A DNA stretch of 64,000 nucleotides. It comes from Cheilinus undulatus. Taxonomy: Eukaryota; Chordata; Actinopteri; Labriformes; Labridae. The notes under the pieces were generated by a model, which saw only the letters and a list, made by a program, of their open reading frames with translations, was not told where the DNA came from and did no database searches. Below, in pieces: positions 1-51,891 of the stretch (within the stretch, counting starts at the first letter, position 1; each line of letters begins with the position of its first letter). Both the position numbers and the translations under genes were made by a program. The stretch spans positions 37,327,855-37,391,854 of the forward strand of contig NC_054867.1 in the NCBI RefSeq assembly GCF_018320785.1, read 5' to 3'.

Positions 1-127
1 GCTTAGAGGCCAGTTCCATCATGATGGGGCACTTTTGGGCATAGACCGTCAGAGTCTTCTTGGGCTGCTGGAGGAAGGCCTGTGGCACCCGAGCCAGGAA
101 CGGACAGCGACGCACTATCATATCCAT
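1..127 (-). CDS. alas1: 5-aminolevulinate synthase, ALAS1-type, N-terminal part (first coding exon, runs off window)
   Basis: ALAS joins glycine and succinyl-CoA in the mitochondrial matrix to make 5-aminolevulinate, the first and rate-limiting step of haem synthesis. Only the first 42 codons are present; the gene continues leftwards out of the window. The start at 127 (minus strand) gives [18 protein letters not shown] and onward, which resembles the ALAS1 N-terminus ([17 protein letters not shown]-x-CP-x-MM). It is a basic, hydroxyl-rich mitochondrial presequence. Two Cys-Pro haem-regulatory motifs are visible at Cys8-Pro9 and Cys33-Pro34; in this family haem binding at such motifs blocks mitochondrial import. 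A second in-frame ATG lies two codons downstream (119-121, plus-strand numbering), but the first fits the family spacing to RRCPF. The 5' edge of the exon is a clear acceptor (tttttctcttcag) with the exon starting at 160. ALAS2 was considered because of the upstream IRE, but the presequence is ALAS1-like. The catalytic domain is outside the window. Confidence 0.88.
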
Positions 128-160
128 AGTCAGCAGTGGTGATGATGATTGTCTTAAGGT
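128..160 (-). other. alas1: alas1 exon 2, 5' untranslated part
   Basis: This is the 33-base non-coding leader between the splice acceptor and the ATG of the ALAS gene. The intron ends in a pyrimidine-rich tract plus CAG at 161-163 (read on the minus strand). No ATG occurs in it, so there is no upstream reading frame here. Confidence 0.75.
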
Positions 161-2424
161 CTGAAGAGAAAAACAATAATTTAACTCACTCTCATGCAAA
201 GGAAGTTTCTAACATTTTTTCACCTTGTGCAACAAAAATCTGTTTTGCAAGGTGTTTGCTAAAAGGCACAGTGCAACCTGAAACACAACAGACAATTTTA
301 TCCTGCTTCAAATGAAATGCAAATCAATCCACCTGACCAAAACTCAGGAATTCAGAGCGATTTAAGTATAAAGTTTCTAATTTCTGCTCAAAGAGGGCTG
401 CTGCTTGGAGAATACTTCAAAAGTGAACCATTTACAACAAGCCGGGGGTTTTCTTTATTACTTCTTTATAATTAAAATGTTGCAAAATAAAAAATATGAA
501 GACAAGTAAAGCAAATTGTTTACCCATACTTTATGGAAAGTTTAATTCACAACTACTTGTGTTCAAAAATCTTTGCAGATGAAGTAAAGATCTCTTCTAG
601 TCTTAAATACCTTTTTCATTTTAAACCAAATAAGGTCAGTTATTTTGCAGCAACCATATTATATCTGTGTAGGGATGGATTGGGGAAGTTTTACTATTTA
701 AATATATGTTGTAAGGATGCCAAAAGATTAACATTTTTAACTGCAATTAATCTCAGTATTTCTGTAGTTAATCAGGATTAATGAGACTTTTTAATATCAT
801 GTTTTAAAATTCCACTTTTTTGCATCTAAACTGTTTTTGTGTCATTCGTCTTTCTTGCTATTAAAGGTAGATTTAAGAACTTAACTACAGATTTTTGGTT
901 AACTTTTTTATTTTGAGCAATACATCTGTTCAAAAAGGAGTTGAAAGTAATAATCTGTATAATTTGGAAAAACAAAATCTAGGTTGTTTGCACGAAATTC
1001 CAATTAAATTTGAACAAACTAAAGTTTCCTCTGCCCCTTTGCCTGAAAGGTAACAAGGGGTGGCTGAGAGCTCCAAATATTTCCAGTAAATAGACTTCAT
1101 GCTGACTTTTATTTCGATCTACTGTACCATTTCTGAGGTCAGTAATGAACATTGATCTTTCAACTGGGGCTGCATCACAACAATGCTGATAATTATGATA
1201 CTTCCGTGTGATACTAGTAAAACCTAATAAATGCCCATACCTGTTCTGAAATCATGGCAAAAAGGAAAGTCCCAGGCACCCAATTTTGGACAATTTATTG
1301 TTTTCCATAACTTTTTCATATCACAAGCAAACTCTTCCACAATATCTAAATTGCACTAACACGTCTGTGACGTTTTGGTGCATCAACATTTTTGATGGAT
1401 TCATTTCATTCTAAACACCCATCATCTCAGGTATATGTAGTTTTTTAATGCTTTGTGCTTTTAGATACCACACCTCAGTTTACAATAGATTGTTTGATCT
1501 TTAAACACATGGTAATGAAAACCACAATACTGCTATCCACATCATCTTTGTTGATTTTCCCAAGTTGCGTCACATATTACACATCCTAAAACGAGACTTT
1601 CTATTACTCACATTTACTAATCAGGATGACCTACTACCAGTGCGTCTGGTGTTTATATTGTAATAACTGTGTGACATATGAATGTAAAAGGTGTATCGAA
1701 ATAAAAAAAAAACCACAGTTATTCTTACTGTACGTTTATCTCTGAGCAGTATGACCTTCTTCCTGTTGTAGCCAAGTTTACACATTCCTCGACAGAATAA
1801 TCACTGCCATACTCCGCCTCCCAGTTCCAGGAAAAGGGGTAAGGGCTTTTAGAAACCTGAATAAGATATAACTACTGTCTGAAGACCACCTTCATATCAA
1901 TTATGGTAGCTCTGATTATATTTCACGCTATATCCTGTCAACCTGTGAGCCTTGCACTTACAACTGTACACGGAGATTTTTCTACCAAGCCAAAATCAGT
2001 CTCCTTTCCTTGTTTGAACCGTGTGGTTCCACTAAGAATAAATCATACAATAGCAAGACGCCTTTTATTTTTTCCAATACAATATTGAATTGTGTATACA
2101 CATAAATTAGTTGGTCAGCGTTTATAAGCCTTTAAAGTTGGTCTTACGCTGTTTTTTCCATAGAAGAAAGAGGATTATAACACAGATAGAGCAAAAGTCA
2201 CGACTTTATCCATTTCTGACCTTTATCGACTTGTAATGACCACAAAATATCCGGCTGCAGCGTTATAACCACCCTGTTACATGTAAGAAAAGCAAAGACT
2301 TAACCAAAGCCTTGTGGCTTTTGATGTTTGCCGGTTGACCGAGCTTAACGTTAGCTAAGCTGCTAGCATTAGCTAGAAAGCTACAGCCGGAACGTGGAAG
2401 ATGATAATGAAATTAGAAACTTAC
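161..2424 (-). other. alas1: alas1 intron 1
   Basis: A 2.26 kb intron in the 5' leader. The donor on the minus strand is TTTTGACAG followed by GTAAGTTT (exon edge at 2425); the acceptor is at 161. The content is AT-rich. Small ORFs at 533-781 (plus) and 1903-2088 (plus) show no family resemblance and are taken as chance. A GCTAGC-rich palindromic stretch lies near 2345-2385; similar GCTA-rich stretches recur near 9460 and 46940. Confidence 0.7.
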
Positions 2425-2595
2425 CTGTCAAAAGAACTTCGAAGTCAATTTGAAATTCTCCTGTGATGTCTCGATGCGACCAGGATTGAGGCAGTCTTGC
2501 TTATCTAGTGTTAATCGCTGGCAAAAATCACTCTTTCTCAAAGGAGTGGGAAGACCGCTGCTTCGTTATCCTGCACTGAGGACGAACGAAAAGGA
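2425..2595 (-). other. alas1: alas1 non-coding exon 1 (5' end estimated)
   Basis: The 3' edge is fixed by a strong donor at 2424/2425. The 5' edge is an estimate: a TATA-like TATAAG at 2612-2617 on the minus strand would place transcription start at about 2587, and a pyrimidine-rich run at 2590-2600 is another possible start region. The exon has no ATG on the minus strand, so translation should begin in exon 2. It contains the IRE at 2562-2590 and an AGATAAG (GATA-type) motif at 2500-2506. Total leader length would be about 200 nt. Confidence 0.6.
2562..2590 (-). promoter_or_regulatory. Canonical iron-responsive element (IRE) in the alas1 5' leader
   Basis: Read on the minus strand, a hairpin with every defining feature of an IRE is present. 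The loop is CAGTGC (2573-2578). The upper stem is five pairs, GTCCT with AGGAT (four Watson-Crick pairs and one G-U). A single unpaired C (2584) sits 5' of the upper stem. The lower stem is six perfect pairs, TTCGTT with AACGAA. In known genes a cap-proximal 5' IRE binds IRP1/IRP2 when iron is scarce and blocks translation. The core resembles the IRE of mammalian ALAS2 as I remember it. The hairpin is seen directly; its inclusion in the transcript and its function are inferred, because the transcription start is not known. Confidence 0.75.
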
Positions 2596-2599
2596 CGAG

Positions 2600-2680
2600 G
2601 ACGTAGCGGTGCTTATAACAGCGTACGCTGGAGTGTGGAACTCTCGCGAGATGTAAGTCATTGACGTCAGAGGGTCACAT
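2600..2680 (-). promoter_or_regulatory. alas1 core promoter
   Basis: Several motifs are stacked just upstream of exon 1. They are a TATA-like TATAAG at 2612-2617 (minus), a palindrome AGCGTACGCT at 2620-2629 that resembles a weak NRF-1 site, the 10-bp palindrome TCTCGCGAGA at 2642-2651 (a motif of ubiquitous vertebrate promoters), a full cAMP response element TGACGTCA at 2662-2669, and a nuclear-receptor half-site AGGGTCA at 2671-2677 (plus strand). CREB and nuclear-receptor/PGC-1alpha control of ALAS1 is established in mammals. The motifs are seen; occupancy is not. Confidence 0.6.
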
Positions 2681-9336: not shown

Positions 9337-12300
9337 GTAAGTTTTAGTTTTTTTGAGTCAAATCAGTATTTTCTTGTCTTTTAACTGCTTTTGGCGTTGT
9401 TATATTCAACGCTCCTGTTACTGCGTGTTTTAACGGTCAACAGTTAGCCCATGAGATCCGTTAGCTAGTAACGGGGGCTCGGAGTGACCAAATTCAGGGC
9501 GATGTCAGTGACAGTAGCTTTGTAAACGCTTTATTCACCGTTCATTTGTCTCAGTTAGCTAAACTAACCACGCAACCCAGGGATCATTTACAGTTTTTTT
9601 CTATTGAAGGTAAGCGATTTTAACATGAAGGTTGACAAAGAAATTTTACTGCTCTTTATGGGATGTCTCACTTCGTTGTTATCAATTCCTATGAGCTGTG
9701 CGCTGACTTTCACTTTATATAACGACGGAAAAATGATATTCCTTTCCTTACAAAGTTAGTATTGGTAATAACAATAATAATGGTAATGGTGGTGATGATG
9801 TGATGTTAAATGGCTGGGGTTAATTTTAAACGACCAGTAAGATAACAGTTAAGAAATTAATTAATTTTACAAAGCCTTTATAAGTCCCAAGCCCATCCCT
9901 AAAGCCAATTTTTACATCAGAAATATTCATGCTTGGTTCAGAAATGAAAAATTGGATTCTAACGAAGTAGGCCTATTTGACATTTATAGCTGGCACCACG
10001 AGCTGGGGGGGGTTAGTGTTCATCAGGCAGAAATTCATTCAGTATTATTAATTTTAAAAACGTGGAATATAAGCATACAGCTGTAGCGAACAAGTAGCCG
10101 GTTATGCAATATTACATGACAGAGTTACTTCAATATAGACTGGTAAGAAAGACAAAAGCAGCTAATTTAAACATAATCCAGAATGGGATTAATTTCCGTG
10201 ATACTTAGTCATGTAGTGAAGAAGTGGCCTTATTTCATTTTAATATATCTTGATTTTTAGTCATAAAGGGAGCTGCAGGACCACTTTTAGTTGCATGCAT
10301 GTTTTATGCCAATCATTCATGTCAATCAATTATGATGCTGTCTCAAACATTTTTAAATAACAACTGACATCCAGACCCAGCAAACATCACCATAATCATC
10401 AAGTTTCCCTTGTTATTCTATCCCACTGTAACATTTAAAACAACAGGACCAGATCAGCCACTGCTCTGTGCTACATGATCATGCAGGGAAGGCTGCTGTG
10501 TGGCTCATCTTGAATTTGATGGCAGCAACAACTCTCAAAAAAGTAGGGACATAAGAAACTTTGCTGATGGTTGTCAGGAAAAACTCTGGGTTGTGTTGTG
10601 AAAAATTTGACTGCTCCACAAGCAGCTTACCCTAAAAATTAAAGCAAGCATTCAGGAGTTCCATGCATATGTGAAGAAGGCTTTATGGTTGAAACTGCAC
10701 AGATTTGCTTTCAGCAACACTTATCTAATATTTGCTCTTGTTCTTTTTCTCTTCTCTGTTACAGTGGGGAGCCCAAACTGTGATTCCTACAGAGATGGAG
10801 CCGGCGTGTACCACGTCTCCCAAACTTGCTACATAGGATACTGCTGTGGATCCTGCTACAACAGATACTGCTGTCAAAATAGCTTCTTAAGGTTGACTGA
10901 GGACGAGCAAGATGAGTGGTATGCTAGATATTTCACTCTGTTATAAATGATGAACTGCCTCTTGCTATGGTTGACAGCTGTACATGTCAAGTTGTGAGAC
11001 AGAGATATCAAGAGGGATCTGCTTCTCTTCTTCTTCTCTGTGTAATTACTGCTGTGGCGTGTTGCTGCAGGCTTTTCTTGCAATCATTATGCAAAGAACA
11101 GGAAGTGATGTCTTCCTGTGCTCGACCACCCTCTTTTAGCTGATACCTGAAGCTGACAGCAGATGTCTCTTTCTATATAACAGAATCCTAAAATGTGTTT
11201 AGCTTACATGTCTAATGATTTAACCATCAATGGAAAGAGGTAGAGGAAGTTACAAACTGGGAAATCCTGTATTGGTTAGAGAAGCTGGTAGTGATGTGTA
11301 ATGCTGATTCTTGTCTCTGATATAGGTTCTAAGATATCAGTGTCATTGGGATTTTCCTTCTGCTTACTGTTGCAGTTATGTAAGATAAAGGTATGTATTT
11401 TTGATTGCTTTTTCCTCTGTGTCTTTTTCAGTGATTCCAAATTTTACATGTCTGACTCCCCTCTGCCCATGGTCTTTGGTATCGGTACCTTTGTGGCCAT
11501 TTTGCTCATCTTCATCTGCTGCTGTGTCTGTCCCTGCTGCTGCCTGTATAAGATGTGTCGAAAACCCAGACGTAAGTAATGCTTTGTTAACTCCTTTTAT
11601 TAGTCATTGTTGTATGTGATGTCTGTTGAAAGTAAACAGGATGATAAAGGGTTTAGAAAAGTGTTTGCCTGCTTTGGTATTTGTCAGGTACTTGATACAT
11701 GCTGTTATTTAGATTTATTGATCTAAGGAGTAGATAATGCAGGCTCAAACAGACTCTTTTTTTTATTACTCTCCATAGTCTTTGTATTAGGAAGGTATTT
11801 TAAGCATTAGGAAACCTTTTGCCGTGAAATACTTTGGATAGATGTTAAAGAGATGTTGTTATGCTCATTTCTGACAAGAGTTGTCACTTTGTCACAGATT
11901 TATAAATTACAATATGGCACTAGCAGGGCTTGACATTAAAGTCCCTGTACAGTGATTAAAAAATCTTTAATTTAGGTCTGTTGTATGAAAGGCCACTGTG
12001 TTATGAAGCACCAGGCCAAATTTCAGTCATGAAAAAAAATGTCTTAGTTTATAAAATTAAGCTTCAAAATCATGAAGAATGAGGCAGTAAAATATGTACT
12101 AGGATGGTGATTTTTTAATTTAAAAAATGCTTCTGATCAGAGCTCAGCTGTCTGGCTCTGTGCCAGAGCAGAGAGACAGAAGTTGGGGATTCAATTTACT
12201 GTTTTCTGGCACAAATCTCTCCATTATGATGCTTTTAATGACCCCACCGTGGCTGATAGATTTGGGAAATTTACCTCACAATGAACAAAAACATAGCATG

Positions 12301-34421: not shown

Positions 34422-37037
34422 GTGAGTTTCACTTAATTTTCTGAAAAAATAGAGGATTTTTAGTGCATCATTGGTGTTAAATAGTCAGAAAGTAAAACAA
34501 AGAGCCAAGCTAATCATCAAGTGCCACCTTCTCATAGCTACACCTTTTAAGTTGGAAATCAAACTCCTATATGCATGTTTGTTTGGCTCACATAAGTGAT
34601 AGATAAAGTTAACCTGCTAATCTAATCAGTGAACATCATCTCATCATGTTTTTATGTTACAGCTGAGAATTGCAACAGCTACACAGACAGTTATGGCAAC
34701 TACTATGACACGCAGCATTGCATGGGTGCCTACTGCTGTGGAACCTGCAACCAAAGGTCCTGCTGCACCAACAGGCAGTATCGTCTAAGTGAAAAGGATC
34801 AGAGGTTATGTGATAATAGGTGCGCCCTCATTAAAAGATCTTGTTTGCTTTGCATGATGCAAAGATTTAAAAAAAAAAAAAACATTTTGAAGGTATGAAT
34901 TTTTCTGTCCTTTCCCACAGCTATGCCAGTGATGGCAGAAGCAAACTAGCTACTCTTCTGGGGAGCATCTTAGGGACTATTTTACCCATCCTCCTTTGTG
35001 TTGGTCTGGTCATCTGCTGTGTCGCTCCCTGCTGCCTGTTCTACAAGAAGTGCCGAAAAGGACGCAGCCGAAGTAGGACAGTTTTGTTTCACTTTAGTTT
35101 GTGCTGGCAAACATTTTTAAGAGTTGAAGAACAGTAAGACAATATGAGACCCAAGCCTTTATTTAGTATTACACTGCCACAGTTCATAAATGAACATTGC
35201 ATTTAATCAGTGCAGTAAGCAGGTAGGCTAGATAGCAAGTTAAACATGCAACTTATATATGGTCTAGTTTAACTGAAGACACAAACAGATAGGTTCCTGC
35301 TTATCCTCAACCTGAACTATAGTGCAGAACTAATGCAGGAGAGGGATGTGAATGTTTCAAGTTAGCGGCAGCCATCCTGATTGCTCACCAGTTTTCCTCA
35401 CTCAGGATCAGAGTCAGATGTGTTTAATATCTGGGGCTAATCCCAAATCTTCCCCATACATTTTTGCTTATCGGGCAGTTGTATGCACACATTTTTTCAC
35501 AATTTTAAACATACATTTTGATTTAAAATACCAACAAATCTATTCATATTTTAGGCAAAAATGATGCAGTTCAACCTAAAAGAAAACTCTTCAGTGCATT
35601 AATTATTTTTTCTTTAATTGCACTAAAATTGTCGTTATCATTCTAAAATCATGATACACCTTATTGAAGTTTAGTAATTTTCACTTCTGTCTCCTAAAAT
35701 GTCTGATGTTTGTTTTTAAAGTAGGTTAGGGGCGTTATTTGGTGTAAAAGTTCCCAACTGGAGCTGCACATTTTCAAACAAAGAACATAAAAAGCAACAT
35801 ATGGGGTCACAGATATTGATTTACTCACAAAAATGCTGAAAATTGTACTTTTAGAACAATATTTATACTACATTTTATACTGCAGTGAATGCATTAGCTG
35901 TCAGGAGTCAAAAGATACATTTTTTAGAGTCTGGCTTTAAGAATCAAATTTCCATGTTATGACCAGCATGATTTGCATTCGTCTATCATAAGATTCATAA
36001 GCAACATTCTTTTAACCAACCTGAAAGATTCAGAGCTTCTAAGAAAACATTTGGGGCTTAAGCCCCATAAGCCACCCTCTCGCTCCGCCCATGCCTTTAC
36101 TGCTCCTAAAACCTAAAAGTGTTTGCAACAACACTGACTTATGTCAGACTAAATGAAAGTCTGTCCCAACAGGAGAGAAATAAGACACATGAGCCAGAGC
36201 AAACGGAACAGGAGCAGGAAGTTTTGTCTGGTGTCAGATTACAGTCATGTCTGATAAGCTGAGCTAATATAAGCTTCCCTCCAGGAAGCCATTTAAGAGG
36301 AGAGGAGTTTTAAACTGGCTAGGAGACAGTCTCCTTTTGTAAAAAAAAAAAAAAAAAAAAAAAAGGCTCTATAAAATGTAACGTGACTGTCAGCATAAAC
36401 ATTCACTATTTCTATTTGTTTCAATGCTAGAAACCTCTGTGGTTAGGTGCAGGGGCTCCAGATAGAGATAAACTACATACTTTTTTCAGTAGAAAAAAAC
36501 CATAGCAATCTATACATTAGTTTGTCAAAAGAAAGCATGATGAGATTCTGTGTTTTAAAATACTTTTATTTGCACATGACTAAATAATGAAAAAGATCTG
36601 CAAAATCAACACAAGCATAAAGGATCTTTAACTTAAGGCTGCTCAGATTTTTTTGGTTGTTCACGACTGCACCATGTCAGACTATCCAACAAAAATCTTG
36701 TAGTGTCAGTCATTTTACAACAGAATTGCTCTATGTGATTGTAACAGTAGAGAAAGATTAAAAAAACACCATCAAGAAACCATTTTGGATTGGATTATGG
36801 GTTATGGTTAATAATTTTGGAGGTATCAAGAGGAGGAAAATACTGACTGACTCTCAGACATAACTTAGGGTATCCATGTGATAATGGAAATAAAACAAAA
36901 CAAAACAAAATAAAATAAGATAAAATTAAATTAGATAAAATTAAATGTACCCATTAGATACCAAGAGAGAGGAAAAGGGGACTCTTGTAGATCAGGATGC
37001 AAAGATAAGGAGCAAAGCCCTCTATTGGTTTATATAC

Positions 37038-37092
<55 letters not shown>

Positions 37093-40000
37093 GGATGAAT
37101 GATACTAATTGTCGAAGAACTGAAGGTGGAACTGTTTCCCATTCTTGCTTGATATAGATCATAATATGCTCAATAGTGCAGGGTTTCCATGATCATATTT
37201 TGCACTTTTTATGCACAATACAATATAATGTGAGACAGAACTGCTTGCATGGAGTTTAGTATCCACACTCTTCCACTGTGAAACCATGCTGTTGTAATGT
37301 GCAGAATATGGCTTAGCATTGTCCTGCTGAAATAAGCAGGAATGTCTCTGAAAAAAAGACTTCCATCTGGATGGAAGCACACTGATGTTGCTCCAAACCC
37401 TTTATGTACCTCTTAGTGTTAATGATGCCCTCACAGATGTGCAAGTGACCCCTGCTATGAGCACTAGTACACCCTCACTACATCATCAATGCTAGCTTTC
37501 GAACTTTGCATTAATAAAAATCTGGATGGTTATTGTCCTCTTTAGCCCAGAGGATTTGAATTGTCATTATTTCCAAAACAATTTGAAACGTTAACTTATT
37601 GAACCACAACACACTGATCTACTTTAGATCAGTCCGTCTCTAATGAGATCTTGCTTTAAGAGGTCAGCAACATCTCTCAGTGTTGTTGATATATGGCTTT
37701 CACTTTGCATGCTAGAGTCTTAACTTCATAGAAGCAGTGATGATCTGTGTTAACTGACAATGGTTTTCTGAAGTGCTCTTGATTCTGTGTTGTAATACCC
37801 ATCACAGAATGATGCCAGTTTTTAATGCTTGTTGAGGGGTTGAAGGTCATGGGTCACAGGATTAAAGGATATTTGAACAACAGGGTTGATACCTGTCACT
37901 AAGTCTCTGTTCCATGTGACAGGTGGCTGTAGTGGTAAAATTCTGACCTGCTTTATATTCTGATATAGCCACTCCAAACTGCACCATGAATCACTTTGTA
38001 AATACCATGCTGTGTTGTATGAAAGTGATAGTAGTGATTATACCATAAATTCATCATGTAAATGTTGATGTAAGTTAATAGAAATGAAGAGATGAGGGGT
38101 TATGTCTTTCTCATCTACTTCTGGACTGTTAGTCATGGTCTCGCCCTCTGCTGGTCATTAAAAAGAATGCAGGGTTAATAGCACTGACTTCACCTATGGA
38201 AACATATCTGCTTTATATACAGTATACTGTAGAGTCAATGGCAAAGTGTTTGAAATAAAGCAACAGAGTTAAGTCTTCACAGTTGTCTGCCAACAAATCC
38301 AGGAGTACCGCCATATTTTCACGACAAAGTCTTCCTTTTCTCTTCAGCACCAACTGGCCCCACTGTGATCCACATGCCCCAGCAGCCTAACCACCCCTCC
38401 ATAAACCCTGGGTACCAGCCTGTACCTGTTCAGCCTGGAATGGGAGGCCTGCCAAACCCTTCTGGACCTCCTCCCTACAGTGAGTAATGTCATGATATTC
38501 AAACATTTAACAACTCCTTTAATGCAAAAAAACTCATTTAAACTCCTTATGCACCGTCACTAAGTATTCTAAAACAGAATGCAATGATTTACATAATAAA
38601 CCCATATTTTTTCACAAGAGAGCATGAACAACATCTCAGATGTTGAAACTGAGATGTCTTATTATTTCATGAAGAATATTATCTCAATTTGAATTTGATG
38701 GCAGCAACACATCTCAAAAAAGTAGGGACAAAAGGCTGGAAAAGTAAGCTGTACTAATGAAAAACAGTTGAAGGAATATTTTGCAACTTATAAGGTATAT
38801 TGACAACAGGTCAGCAGCATGAGTTGGTATAGAAGGTGCATTTTAGAGAAGCAGAGTCTCTTAGGATTAAAAACGGGCAGAAGTTCACCAATCTGTGAAA
38901 AAATTGTGGCTCAAGATTGAAACTATTTCAGAAAAAATGTTAATGTAAAATGGCAAAGACTTTGAATATCCCACACTGTACGGTGTGTAATATCATCAAA
39001 AGCTGTGCCATCCCCAAATTATCATGCAAAGATACAGCTTTCTGCCACAACCTTTTCTGAGGTAAATCTCATTTGAAATGGACTGGGGCAAAACGGAAAA
39101 CTATTCTGTGGTCAGATTGATTAAGATTTGAAATTCTTTTTAGAAACCACGGACTCTATCCAGCCTGTTATCAGTGCACAGTTCGAAAGCCTGCATCTCT
39201 GATGGTATGGGGCTGCATTAGTGCCAATGGGGTCGGCAGCTTGCACATCTGGAAAGGCACTATTGATGCTGAAACGTACATAGAGATTTTAAAACAACAT
39301 GTGCTCCCATCCAGACAGTGTCTGTTTCAGGGAAGGCCTGGTGTAATTTAGCAAGACAATGCTAAAACACATTCATATCAATCACAACAGCCTGGCTTCC
39401 CAATAGAAGAGTCCAGGTGCTAAACTGGCCTGCCTACAATCCAGACCTTTCACCAATACACTGGACTGTGGAGCAGCTTGAATCCTACATTGGACAAGAA
39501 TGGGACAACATTCCTCTCCAAAAACTCTCACAACTGGTCTCCTTACTTCTCAGTCTCCTTACTCCCAGATGTAAACAATGGCTGGTACAGTGGTACCATG
39601 GTTAAAACAATGGTAAACACGGCCCTGTCCCTTCTTTTTTGAGATGTGTTGCAGCCATCAAATTCAAAATAAGCTAATATTTTTCATGAAATGTTCAAAT
39701 GTCTCAGCTTCAACATCTGATATGTTGTTTATGTTCTTTTGTGAATAAATACGAGTTTATGAGAACTAAAAATCATTGCATTCTGCCTTGATTTACATTT
39801 TACGCAGCGCTGCAACTGCCTTCAAATTGGGGTTGTAACATTACAGCACTAAAACTTCACTTGGGTTAAAATGAAAAGCCCTTTAAGGATGACACTCCAC
39901 AAAAATTATGACTGCAGCTGTTTGACATCACCACCCAAAATGCATTACATAACAATGACAGCATAATTGTGACCTTTTTTATGTTTACCCAAATGTTGAA

Positions 40001-48604: not shown

Positions 48605-48960
48605 GGGATGGGATGGGGGTAGGAGTGAGCGGGCTATTCAAGGCACTTGTCCTCTGTCTCCCTCTGAGCTTAGAGGAGGGGGGAGGCGCACATGCATTGA
48701 GAGAAACACACTCACTCTCACACACACATAGTGGCGACCACATTTTCACAGCCTGCTCTTCAGACTGACAGCAGCAAACGGAGTTGAGCACCAGCACGAT
48801 TAAGCAAGGGAGGAAGAGAGGATTGGGAGTGAGGTAGAAGAGAGGACAGGACAGAAGGAAGCGCAGGATTTTCCCTTTTTACCCTCTTTTAGCTCTTCTG
48901 GGAGCCATAAAAGGAATCTTTCCCCCTGAACTTGTTCTGCTTCAGGACCTGCACCCTGCT
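48534..48960 (+). promoter_or_regulatory. itga7-like promoter and 5' leader
   Basis: An E-box CAGCTG (48534-48539), a GA-rich tract (48541-48606) and a perfect CArG box CCATAAAAGG (48905-48914) precede the ATG at 48961. The CArG box could bind SRF; its TAAAA core could also act as a TATA-like element, which would put the start near 48937. Motifs are seen; use is inferred. Confidence 0.4.
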
Positions 48961-49178
48961 ATGGCAGCCCTAACGGGATATGGGAACACTGTCTCCCTCT
49001 CATCTCGCTCCTCTCATCCTTGGACTACCCTCCTCTGGGCTCTGTCGACCCTCCTTATCCATGTGCAGGGCTTTAACCTGGATACGATTCACACGCTGCA
49101 TAAGTTGGGAGACAAGGGCACGTTTTTTGGTTTCTCACTCGCACTTCACCAGCAGCTAACCCCCAAACCTCAGAGCTG
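48961..49178 (+). CDS. itga7: Integrin alpha-7-like, first coding exon (gene continues beyond window)
   Basis: Encodes 72 residues plus two bases of a Trp codon, ending AGCTG before GTGAGTGG (phase 2). A signal peptide (about 1-37, with hydrophobic TTLLWALSTLLIHV) is followed by the mature start FNLDT, characteristic of the laminin-binding alpha-3/6/7 integrins. KLGDKGTFFGFSLALHQQL is the first strand of the beta-propeller. The end TPKPQSW fits alpha-7 best among the three as I remember them (alpha-7 has RPQSWLLVGAP). Alpha-7 pairs with beta-1 as a laminin receptor at muscle and nerve cell surfaces. No second exon (expected to begin with an LLVGAP-type segment) was found up to 64000, so intron 1 exceeds 14.8 kb, or the exon was missed. 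Alpha-6 and alpha-3 remain possible. Confidence 0.75.
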
Positions 49179-51891
49179 GTGAGTGGCTGAATGGCGCACT
49201 GAGCTTGCCCTCAGTGTCCTGTGTGTGTCTGACTTTTTGTTGCAGCTTACATTCTTGAAGTGTGGCACTTGCTCCTGTATTAAAAAATCTATAGGTTCAG
49301 GAATTTTAATCCTAAGGGTTGTCTAAAGCTTAGACTTGAGTCAGCATTTCTGTGCTTTACCAGTCCTTGCATTTGCTTAATCATTGCTTCTCCCATAACT
49401 CTGATCGGAGCAGGGTGCAGGAGGGTTTAGCATGTTTATGTGCAGCAAGAGCGGGCTGAACTCTGAGTTGCTAGAGGATGATTTACAGTAAGTGGAGAGT
49501 GGATGAGAGCAGCTTTGCTGAATCAGCTGGCAGTGATTTCTGAGGGGAAGAGAAAAAGGACTTTTAAGTGATTTTTCTCCCGTGACTGGCACTTCATATA
49601 GGTGGAGTGGAGATGCTTTAGTGTGTATAGCAGAATGATGTTGTCAATGTTAGTTTTTCTCAAAGAAATGTCTGGAGTACCACAGGGAACTTAAAGAGTC
49701 TCACAATAGTTTGTTTTTGCACATTTCAATAAGCAAGAAAATATTTTTCACTTGTTTTTCTGGACATCTTGAAACATTTTATTCTTATAACTAATATCTT
49801 AGAGTAAAAATCCTATGAGATAGATACCAAGAGGATAGATTTTATCCTGAGTCTGTGGGTTAATTTATTTCAGTCAAGGTCAAAAAATTGGCCACTATCC
49901 TCTCTATTTTGATCACTTTAGTTCTTTTTCTGCTGTTTACGACCAGCTGTTATTATGCGTCTTTTACTGTGACTAGAACACTCTAAAGCCAGGCTTTCAC
50001 TGTCCAGAAGCCATGAATAAATGATAACAACAGGTCAGATTGTAAATCATTGCCAATAACTTTAATTTTATGGCAGCTAATGAAAGGCTACTTCTTCTGA
50101 ACCCTTTATTCAATTAGATTTCCAAACAGTTTTAATATAGCTATGAGTTTTTTTTTTACCTATGCCCAGAGGTCTGTCACTTATTTTCCAATACAAATCA
50201 ATGAATAATTTTCTTAAATGATGGGGAAAATTTCCACAGGGAGTAACAGAATGCACAGAAATATAAACTGTACAATGACCAAAGGAAACACTTAGCTTTT
50301 GTATTTGCCTGAAGCATTAGTAGTACTACTTTGAAATAATTTTAGTGTACGTCGAATTTCCTAATTCATTCACAGGTACAGAAATAATGTTAACAAAACT
50401 ATTCACAGTTTTGAAATCACATCTATTTGTCATGCAAAAATGGGCCATGAATGCATAGTATGCTACATTTAATAACCATCTTTTTTTGCATGTTGTATAG
50501 GTCATGGAGCTACTTTAAGTGCACCATACTTAAAGAAAATTTTTGTTCATCTCTGACCTCAAGCCATATTTGAGTGTCAGTCCTTCAATCTGAAATCTAG
50601 CTGAAAAAAAAGAGGAGAGTTAAAACAGCGTTCCTCCCCTTTACAAGCCAGTGGGTTGAAATATAAAGCTGTATAAAACATAAATAAAGGAATTAGTTTA
50701 CTACAGGTTCCTGTTTTGGAGCTCCATATTTAACTTTTGGCTCCTCAGTTTACTCGCTCTGGAGTCGTCCTGTCGCTGGGTTAGACCGGTGACATCAGTG
50801 TCACAGACATATAGACGGTCAGACAGGGACTTGTGTCACCCCTCTGAAACCTGCTCTCTGTCCAGCAACGTTCCTGGAACTGATTTTAGTAACTGACTAA
50901 GGGCTATAGGTATGTGAGGAACGTATGCATTTTACTGTAGCCAGTTTCTAACTGCAAACAGAGCAAAGACTCCTGAGAAAATGCCCATAATGCACCATTG
51001 GAGTTAGTGCCAGGAGAAGGGAGTCAATAAACTCAGCTGATGTGCTGATGTGATGCATCTACTGGAAGAGAGCAAGATGAATAATGTGGTTGCCGGTACA
51101 CTATGACATCACACCTACTGTATGCTAAGATGACTTTATGATTATTTCATCCCTGTTGAACAGCCAGTATTTTTGTAATGACTTTTGATTATTATAGTCA
51201 GGATTTTAGAAATGTAGTCATGAGTCTGTCAAGCATAAATATTTTGTTATTTCAGTCAACTTTTTCACTTCATTTAGCCTATCTAATTCAGTCTTCACAC
51301 ATGCAGGCTGTATCCCATGAAAGCTATTTATTTCAAGCATGTCACCTTTTCTGAAGCTAGTACAAAATTATCATGTTTTATGAATCTTTTAGATTTTGAT
51401 ACACTTTGAGAAAGTTAAGCATAAGAGATGGGCCAGAATAGCAAATTCAGAAGCCTTACAGCTAAGCTTTAATGAAAAGGTCTTTTAGAAGCTGTATATA
51501 TTTGACAAAAGCTTTCGATGCATATGACAAAGCCATATTGAGATCATCTGCAAAATCCAATATCACCATCCCAAGTTACTACTTTTTTTTACGTCATTTC
51601 TCAAACTGCTTTTTTACCACCAAAAAATGTTAAAAAGTACCTCTTGTTTACCATCAGAAATGGCAAACAGTAGCAGAAAATCCCTTTCAAAATGAAAAAA
51701 GGAATCTGCAATCACTGAAGGGCCCTTGCACCCTGGTGCATGTCGTGGTGACGCTGCAACCGTGAGTGTGTAGCAACTGCTGGGTGTTGGCAGCTTATTC
51801 AGTGTGCTGCAGCACATGAAGATCCTCCCAGAACTGTCGTCTAATGTAAACTAATAAGCACATTGCGCTTGTATATGAGGTGCTGCTCATC

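Follow-up and report, generated by a model that had tools for sequence, protein, structure and literature searches.

A gene at the start of the 64,000-nucleotide stretch of Cheilinus undulatus DNA analysed here (hereafter the window) is predicted to encode an ALAS1-type protein, and its predicted leader contains a complete canonical iron-responsive element (IRE). It is quite probable that this is a 5'-leader IRE of fish alas1, homologous to the ALAS2 IRE and inherited from a single ALAS gene predating the ALAS1/ALAS2 duplication; most likely it would gate translation through IRPs, with haem control acting separately. Feature coordinates are collected in Table 1.

Table 1. Positions of the alas1 leader features and of related elements on C11 (plain numbers are window positions)
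Feature	Position	Strand	Basis
Canonical iron-responsive element (IRE)	2562..2590	minus	sequence, fold, shuffles, 18-base core in common with alas2
Probable non-coding exon 1 of alas1	2425..2594	minus	5' end guessed; 3' end is the CAG/GTAAGT donor
5'UTR intron 1 of alas1, 2,264 nt	161..2424	minus	GT-AG boundaries from sequence
Exon 2 of alas1: 33 nt of 5'UTR, then ATG at 127	1..160	minus	sequence
TATA-like TTATAAG	2612..2618	minus	sequence
TCTCGCGAGA palindrome	2642..2651	minus	sequence
TGACGTCA motif	2662..2669	minus	sequence
alas2 leader hairpin core	C11:19810255-19810272	minus	18-base identity
alas1b, ALAS1-type gene with three Cys-Pro motifs	C11:29823493-29826349	minus	groups with the window gene in a tree of five sequences

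A complete iron-responsive element on the minus strand

The original prediction of a perfect canonical IRE on the minus strand is borne out by the sequence, by ViennaRNA folding and by shuffled controls. Read 5' to 3' from 2590, the hairpin consists of TTCGTT, an unpaired C on the 5' side (position 2584), GTCCT, the hexaloop CAGTGC (2578-2573; CAGUGC in RNA, of the CAGUGN type), AGGAT and AACGAA. Six pairs form the lower stem (TTCGTT/AACGAA) and five the upper stem (GTCCT/AGGAT), one of the latter being G-U. The 29-mer folds at -9.5 kcal/mol (z -2.98), a stability found in 2 of 200 shuffles, and a 41-mer folds at -10.8 kcal/mol (z -2.06; 6 of 200 shuffles). When both strands of the window were scanned with a strict definition of the full IRE (CAGTG, bulged C, five upper and six lower pairs), this was the one site found, and none occurred in 400 shuffles made by a dinucleotide walk (custom script; a shuffle may lose as many as 2,000 of its 64,000 bases). 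The analytic expectation for a full IRE is 4.6e-4 per window and 7e-7 per 200 nt of one strand. Relaxing the lower stem to at least four of six pairs yielded two sites in the window, versus 0.035 per shuffle; the other site, at 39588 on the plus strand, is a CAGTG hairpin whose stem forms five upper and four of the six lower pairs beside a bulged C.

A scan of the window with Rfam at the gathering threshold found nothing, and the alas1 hairpin was also absent from permissive scans (E up to 10) of 1,201 nt and 61 nt, which returned four and two matches, respectively, all to unrelated families. This miss says little, because the hairpin of the alas2 gene described below was likewise unreported by Rfam, while a genome search with the IRE_I model (RF00037) finds two matches over its cut-off elsewhere, on C1 and C21; a third match, on C7, falls below the cut-off. 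The alas1 hairpin does not match the RF00037 covariance model and is not filed here as a member of that family. It has in common with this ferritin-like model the CAGUGC loop, the bulged stem and the position in a 5' leader, but differs in stem sequence: of the matches, the C1 and C7 stretches were read, and the C1 match has a ferritin-type stem and is presumably ferritin, to judge from that stem. Thus, IRP binding by itself does not force the stem sequence seen in alas1 and alas2.

The exon boundaries of alas1 were predicted from the genomic sequence alone. In this prediction, the hairpin stands upstream of a spliced leader that is free of ATG, both across the 166 nt that begin with the hairpin and run to the donor and in the 33 nt of 5'UTR in exon 2. 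The palindrome TCTCGCGAGA is taken to be a promoter-type element, TGACGTCA is presumably a CRE-type promoter motif, and TTATAAG is likewise assumed to be a promoter motif. The usual TATA-to-cap spacing is -33 to -28. If canonical, the TATA-like box (2617-2612) would set the cap at about 2589-2584, leaving transcripts short of 1-6 nt of the lower stem. The argument is weakest at this point, the possible cap inside the lower stem.

ALAS genes of the genome and their leaders

The rest of the alas1 gene was rebuilt from the genome beyond the window (C3:37.324-37.327 Mb). The ALAS family model gave 24 exon-level matches in the genome, six each on C3 and at two loci of C11 (19.80 and 29.82 Mb); six weaker matches (at most 64.7 bits) on C6, C14, C18 and C21 were taken for related enzymes. 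Catalytic cores were compared with human ALAS1 and ALAS2 reference sequences; for ALAS2, a segment of 258 residues was compared by eye with PDB 5qqq and agrees. The alignment is approximate for a few residues where exons join. Against these references, the window gene is ALAS1-like at 65 and ALAS2-like at 17 of 115 diagnostic sites, and its protein is 82.6% identical to human ALAS1 versus 72.2% to human ALAS2. The gene at C11:29.82 Mb, here called alas1b, has the same counts over 114 sites and appears to be ALAS1-type, while that at C11:19.80 Mb (41 ALAS2-like versus 29 ALAS1-like of 113 sites) appears to be ALAS2-type. An unrooted five-sequence tree groups the C11:19.80 gene with human ALAS2 at 100/100 and joins the two fish ALAS1-type genes at 94.5/98. 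A 258-residue tree with two bacterial outgroups has weak support at the ALAS2 group and at the root (18.3/58 and 46.8/67), and for this reason the placement relies on unrooted splits from the longer alignment.

The presequence of the window gene contains three Cys-Pro motifs, as expected of ALAS1, and its joined N-terminal segments match Pfam Preseq_ALAS at 1.6e-41. Two such motifs had been predicted, and both are present in exon 2 (RRCPFL and QKCPIM), but the total is three, SKCPFL being encoded further along the gene, by an exon beyond the window. In the comparison, the protein does not cluster with ALAS2, in agreement with the ALAS1-like identity originally proposed. These observations place the window gene in the ALAS1 type, as judged from its predicted protein.

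The separate alas2 gene at C11:19.80 Mb has an IRE-like hairpin in its first exon, where GTTCGTCCTCAGTGCAGGTCAACAG immediately precedes the exon-1 donor. The hairpins of alas1 and alas2 contain an identical 18-base core, GTTCGTCCTCAGTGCAGG, whose exact matches in the 1.17 Gb genome number only two, one in each of these leaders; allowing one mismatch adds a single site, with the mismatch in the loop, and a reversed-pattern control gives none. A 50-mer of alas1 scores higher against the alas2 leader than against any of 500 shuffles; for a longer stretch of alas1 exon 1, 2 of 500 shuffles score as well. The alignment of alas1 exon 1 to the 110 nt around the alas2 hairpin stops at the hairpin. Both genes also have a common layout, in which the hairpin lies in non-coding exon 1 and is followed by a 5'UTR intron (about 2.26 kb in alas1 and 2.31 kb in alas2) that ends 33 nt (alas1) and about 21 nt (alas2) short of the ATG. 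Because the core is exact only at alas1 and alas2 and the exon-intron layout is the same, common ancestry of the two hairpins, as the original prediction had it, is well supported as the simplest reading of the sequence comparison.

The window hairpin resembles the vertebrate ALAS2 5'UTR IRE in its loop, its bulged C and its place in a non-coding first exon ahead of a 5'UTR intron, with a core that recurs in the fish's own alas2. It differs in belonging to an ALAS1-type gene and in forming all five upper and six lower pairs. The alas2 hairpin forms four of five upper pairs (with a U-U mismatch) and three of six lower pairs, and was not picked up by the strict IRE scan. Its computed fold energy is -3.6 kcal/mol, versus -10.7 kcal/mol for the alas1 hairpin, and 145 of 200 shuffles of the alas2 stretch fold at least as well. 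By these computed folds, the stronger hairpin in this fish sits on the housekeeping alas1 and not on alas2.

For alas1b, the strict scan finds no IRE in 20 kb, of which about 15.3 kb lie upstream of the ATG; this negative is not conclusive, because the same scan missed the alas2 hairpin. The 23-base cores of the alas1 and alas2 hairpins find a best match of 16 of 23 bases in the 20 kb at alas1b. An upstream gene, presumably spo11 to judge from translated fragments, leaves about 7.4 kb for the leader of alas1b. A candidate first exon, with a higher CpG content and a GTGAGT donor, lies about 0.9 kb before the coding exon; no IRE was seen in it, and its similarity to the alas1 leader is not significant (74 of 500 and 144 of 500 shuffles scored as well). 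An imperfect IRE-like hairpin occurs about 5.4 kb upstream of the ATG, at gene-strand position 9914 of the joined sequence; it has a CAGUGU loop, six lower pairs, a bulged C and a mismatch closing the loop. Of 4,000 shuffles of this interval, 5 score as high, which makes the hairpin rarer than chance, but on its own the stretch folds to a different, non-IRE shape. The sequence makes loss of the IRE in alas1b plausible, and the imperfect hairpin speaks somewhat against it.

Other features of the window include a Shisa_N exon at 10611-10946 on the plus strand (Pfam 4.8e-13). A further exon with 48% identity to this one follows after about 24 kb (34665-34802, plus strand), and the two are a possible local duplicate pair beside alas1. 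A genome search with this neighbouring shisa-like gene gave three matches, all on C3, and synteny thus lends no support to any origin of alas1b. An open frame at 48838-49182 on the plus strand resembles exon 1 of a gene for an integrin alpha chain; a 54-residue piece of it has no Pfam match.

Published record and competing explanations

IREs in teleost ALAS1 are already in print. Tzou et al. (2014, PMC3904948) report IREs in three of four teleost ALAS1 5'UTRs, and in none of five mammals and none of five birds, reptiles and amphibians. Outside vertebrates, the same survey lists ALAS IREs in a tunicate (one of two chordates), a sea urchin (one of one), a sea anemone (one of one) and the honey bee (one of two arthropods), the tunicate and sea urchin ALAS being single genes. 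Its authors claim the first demonstration of an IRE in vertebrate ALAS1 and propose retention from a common ancestor (PMC3904948). Ten verified IRE-containing genes listed in another source include ALAS2 and not ALAS1 (PMC8466369). Since both the teleost ALAS1 IRE and its ancestral retention were published in 2014, the surprise attached to the original prediction is lower, while its idea of retention matches the published one (PMC3904948). The window hairpin is a clean further example of this published class, with the IRE in a teleost ALAS1 5'UTR and the haem motifs kept, and not a new kind of control. A second alas1 copy that apparently lacks the hairpin is not mentioned in the available text of PMC3904948. 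Additional to published work are this second alas1-type gene, whose upstream 15 kb or so yielded no such hairpin, and the stronger computed fold of the alas1 hairpin compared with that of the fish's own alas2. Among titles and abstract openings of the open literature, a scope that leaves subscription journals mostly uncovered and absence unproven, no test of a fish ALAS1 IRE was recognised beyond PMC3904948; within the same scope, and with absence equally unproven, no account of control split between alas1 copies was recognised.

Several other explanations of the hairpin can be weighed against this background. A cap at the position predicted from the TATA-like box would suit a genomic relic, with most transcripts beginning inside or below the hairpin and IRP control lost. 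However, the bulge, the loop and each of the 11 pairs are intact, which is not expected of a relic, and the IREs of the published survey lie in sequences treated as teleost ALAS1 5'UTRs (PMC3904948); the relic explanation is considered unlikely. That the hairpin arose by chance is favoured by its going unreported in Rfam, but the absence of any full IRE from 400 shuffles, the expectation of 7e-7 in a 200-nt leader and the exact 18-base core in common with alas2 leave this a negligible prospect.

Identity of the hairpin core with that of alas2 across 18 bases would also fit a window gene that is really ALAS2, or an ALAS2-derived copy, in which an IRE is to be expected. The protein is nevertheless of the ALAS1 type, and C11 carries another gene, of the ALAS2 type, that has a leader hairpin of its own; ALAS2 identity, rejected on the protein comparison (65 versus 17 of 115 sites; unrooted split at 100/100), is judged highly improbable. 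Independent origin of the hairpin in fish alas1, or its conversion from alas2, in place of inheritance from a common ancestor, would agree with the 0 of 10 land-vertebrate ALAS1 leaders with an IRE in the published table (PMC3904948), and with the finding of no canonical IRE upstream of alas1b. Yet independent origin requires agreement of 11 free bases (2.4e-7 by a simple count), gene conversion would be expected to bring flanks along, where the alas1-alas2 alignment ends at the hairpin, and IREs are reported for single ALAS genes in a tunicate (one of two) and a sea urchin (one of one) (PMC3904948). An origin of either sort is given a low probability, similar to that of a relic, and descent from a common ancestral IRE is the preferred reading.

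Proposed control and its meaning

Under common descent, a single ALAS gene that existed before the ALAS1/ALAS2 duplication would have passed its IRE to both descendants. In iron-poor cells, IRP1 and IRP2 would bind the alas1 hairpin and block the recruitment of ribosomes; with iron available, ALAS1 would be translated. Haem would act separately, via the Cys-Pro motifs of the presequence. These steps are inferred: transcription would begin above the hairpin, IRPs would bind to it, and translation would follow iron. Partners of the cytosolic aconitase/IRP family look present: the aconitase_1 model has 34 genomic matches, almost all of which fall in one locus on C22 and one on C9, apart from weak matches on C20 and C21, and these two main loci are presumed to be IRP1 and IRP2. 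The two IRE_I matches over the cut-off count likewise towards a working partner system.

A more tentative proposal, held with less than even confidence, is that a duplication in the fish lineage may have split the controls, the window copy having kept the ancestral IRE and responding to iron and haem, and alas1b having lost it and responding to haem alone, with an IRE on the housekeeping gene stronger than that of alas2. The two alas1 copies, of which so far only one has a canonical IRE, offer a natural paired comparison.

In mammals, translational control by iron level is known for the red-cell enzyme ALAS2. If the alas1 hairpin is transcribed and bound, fish tissues would match their routine haem production to iron through translation. 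Iron control of ALAS would then be the ancestral vertebrate state and its loss in land-vertebrate ALAS1 would be derived.
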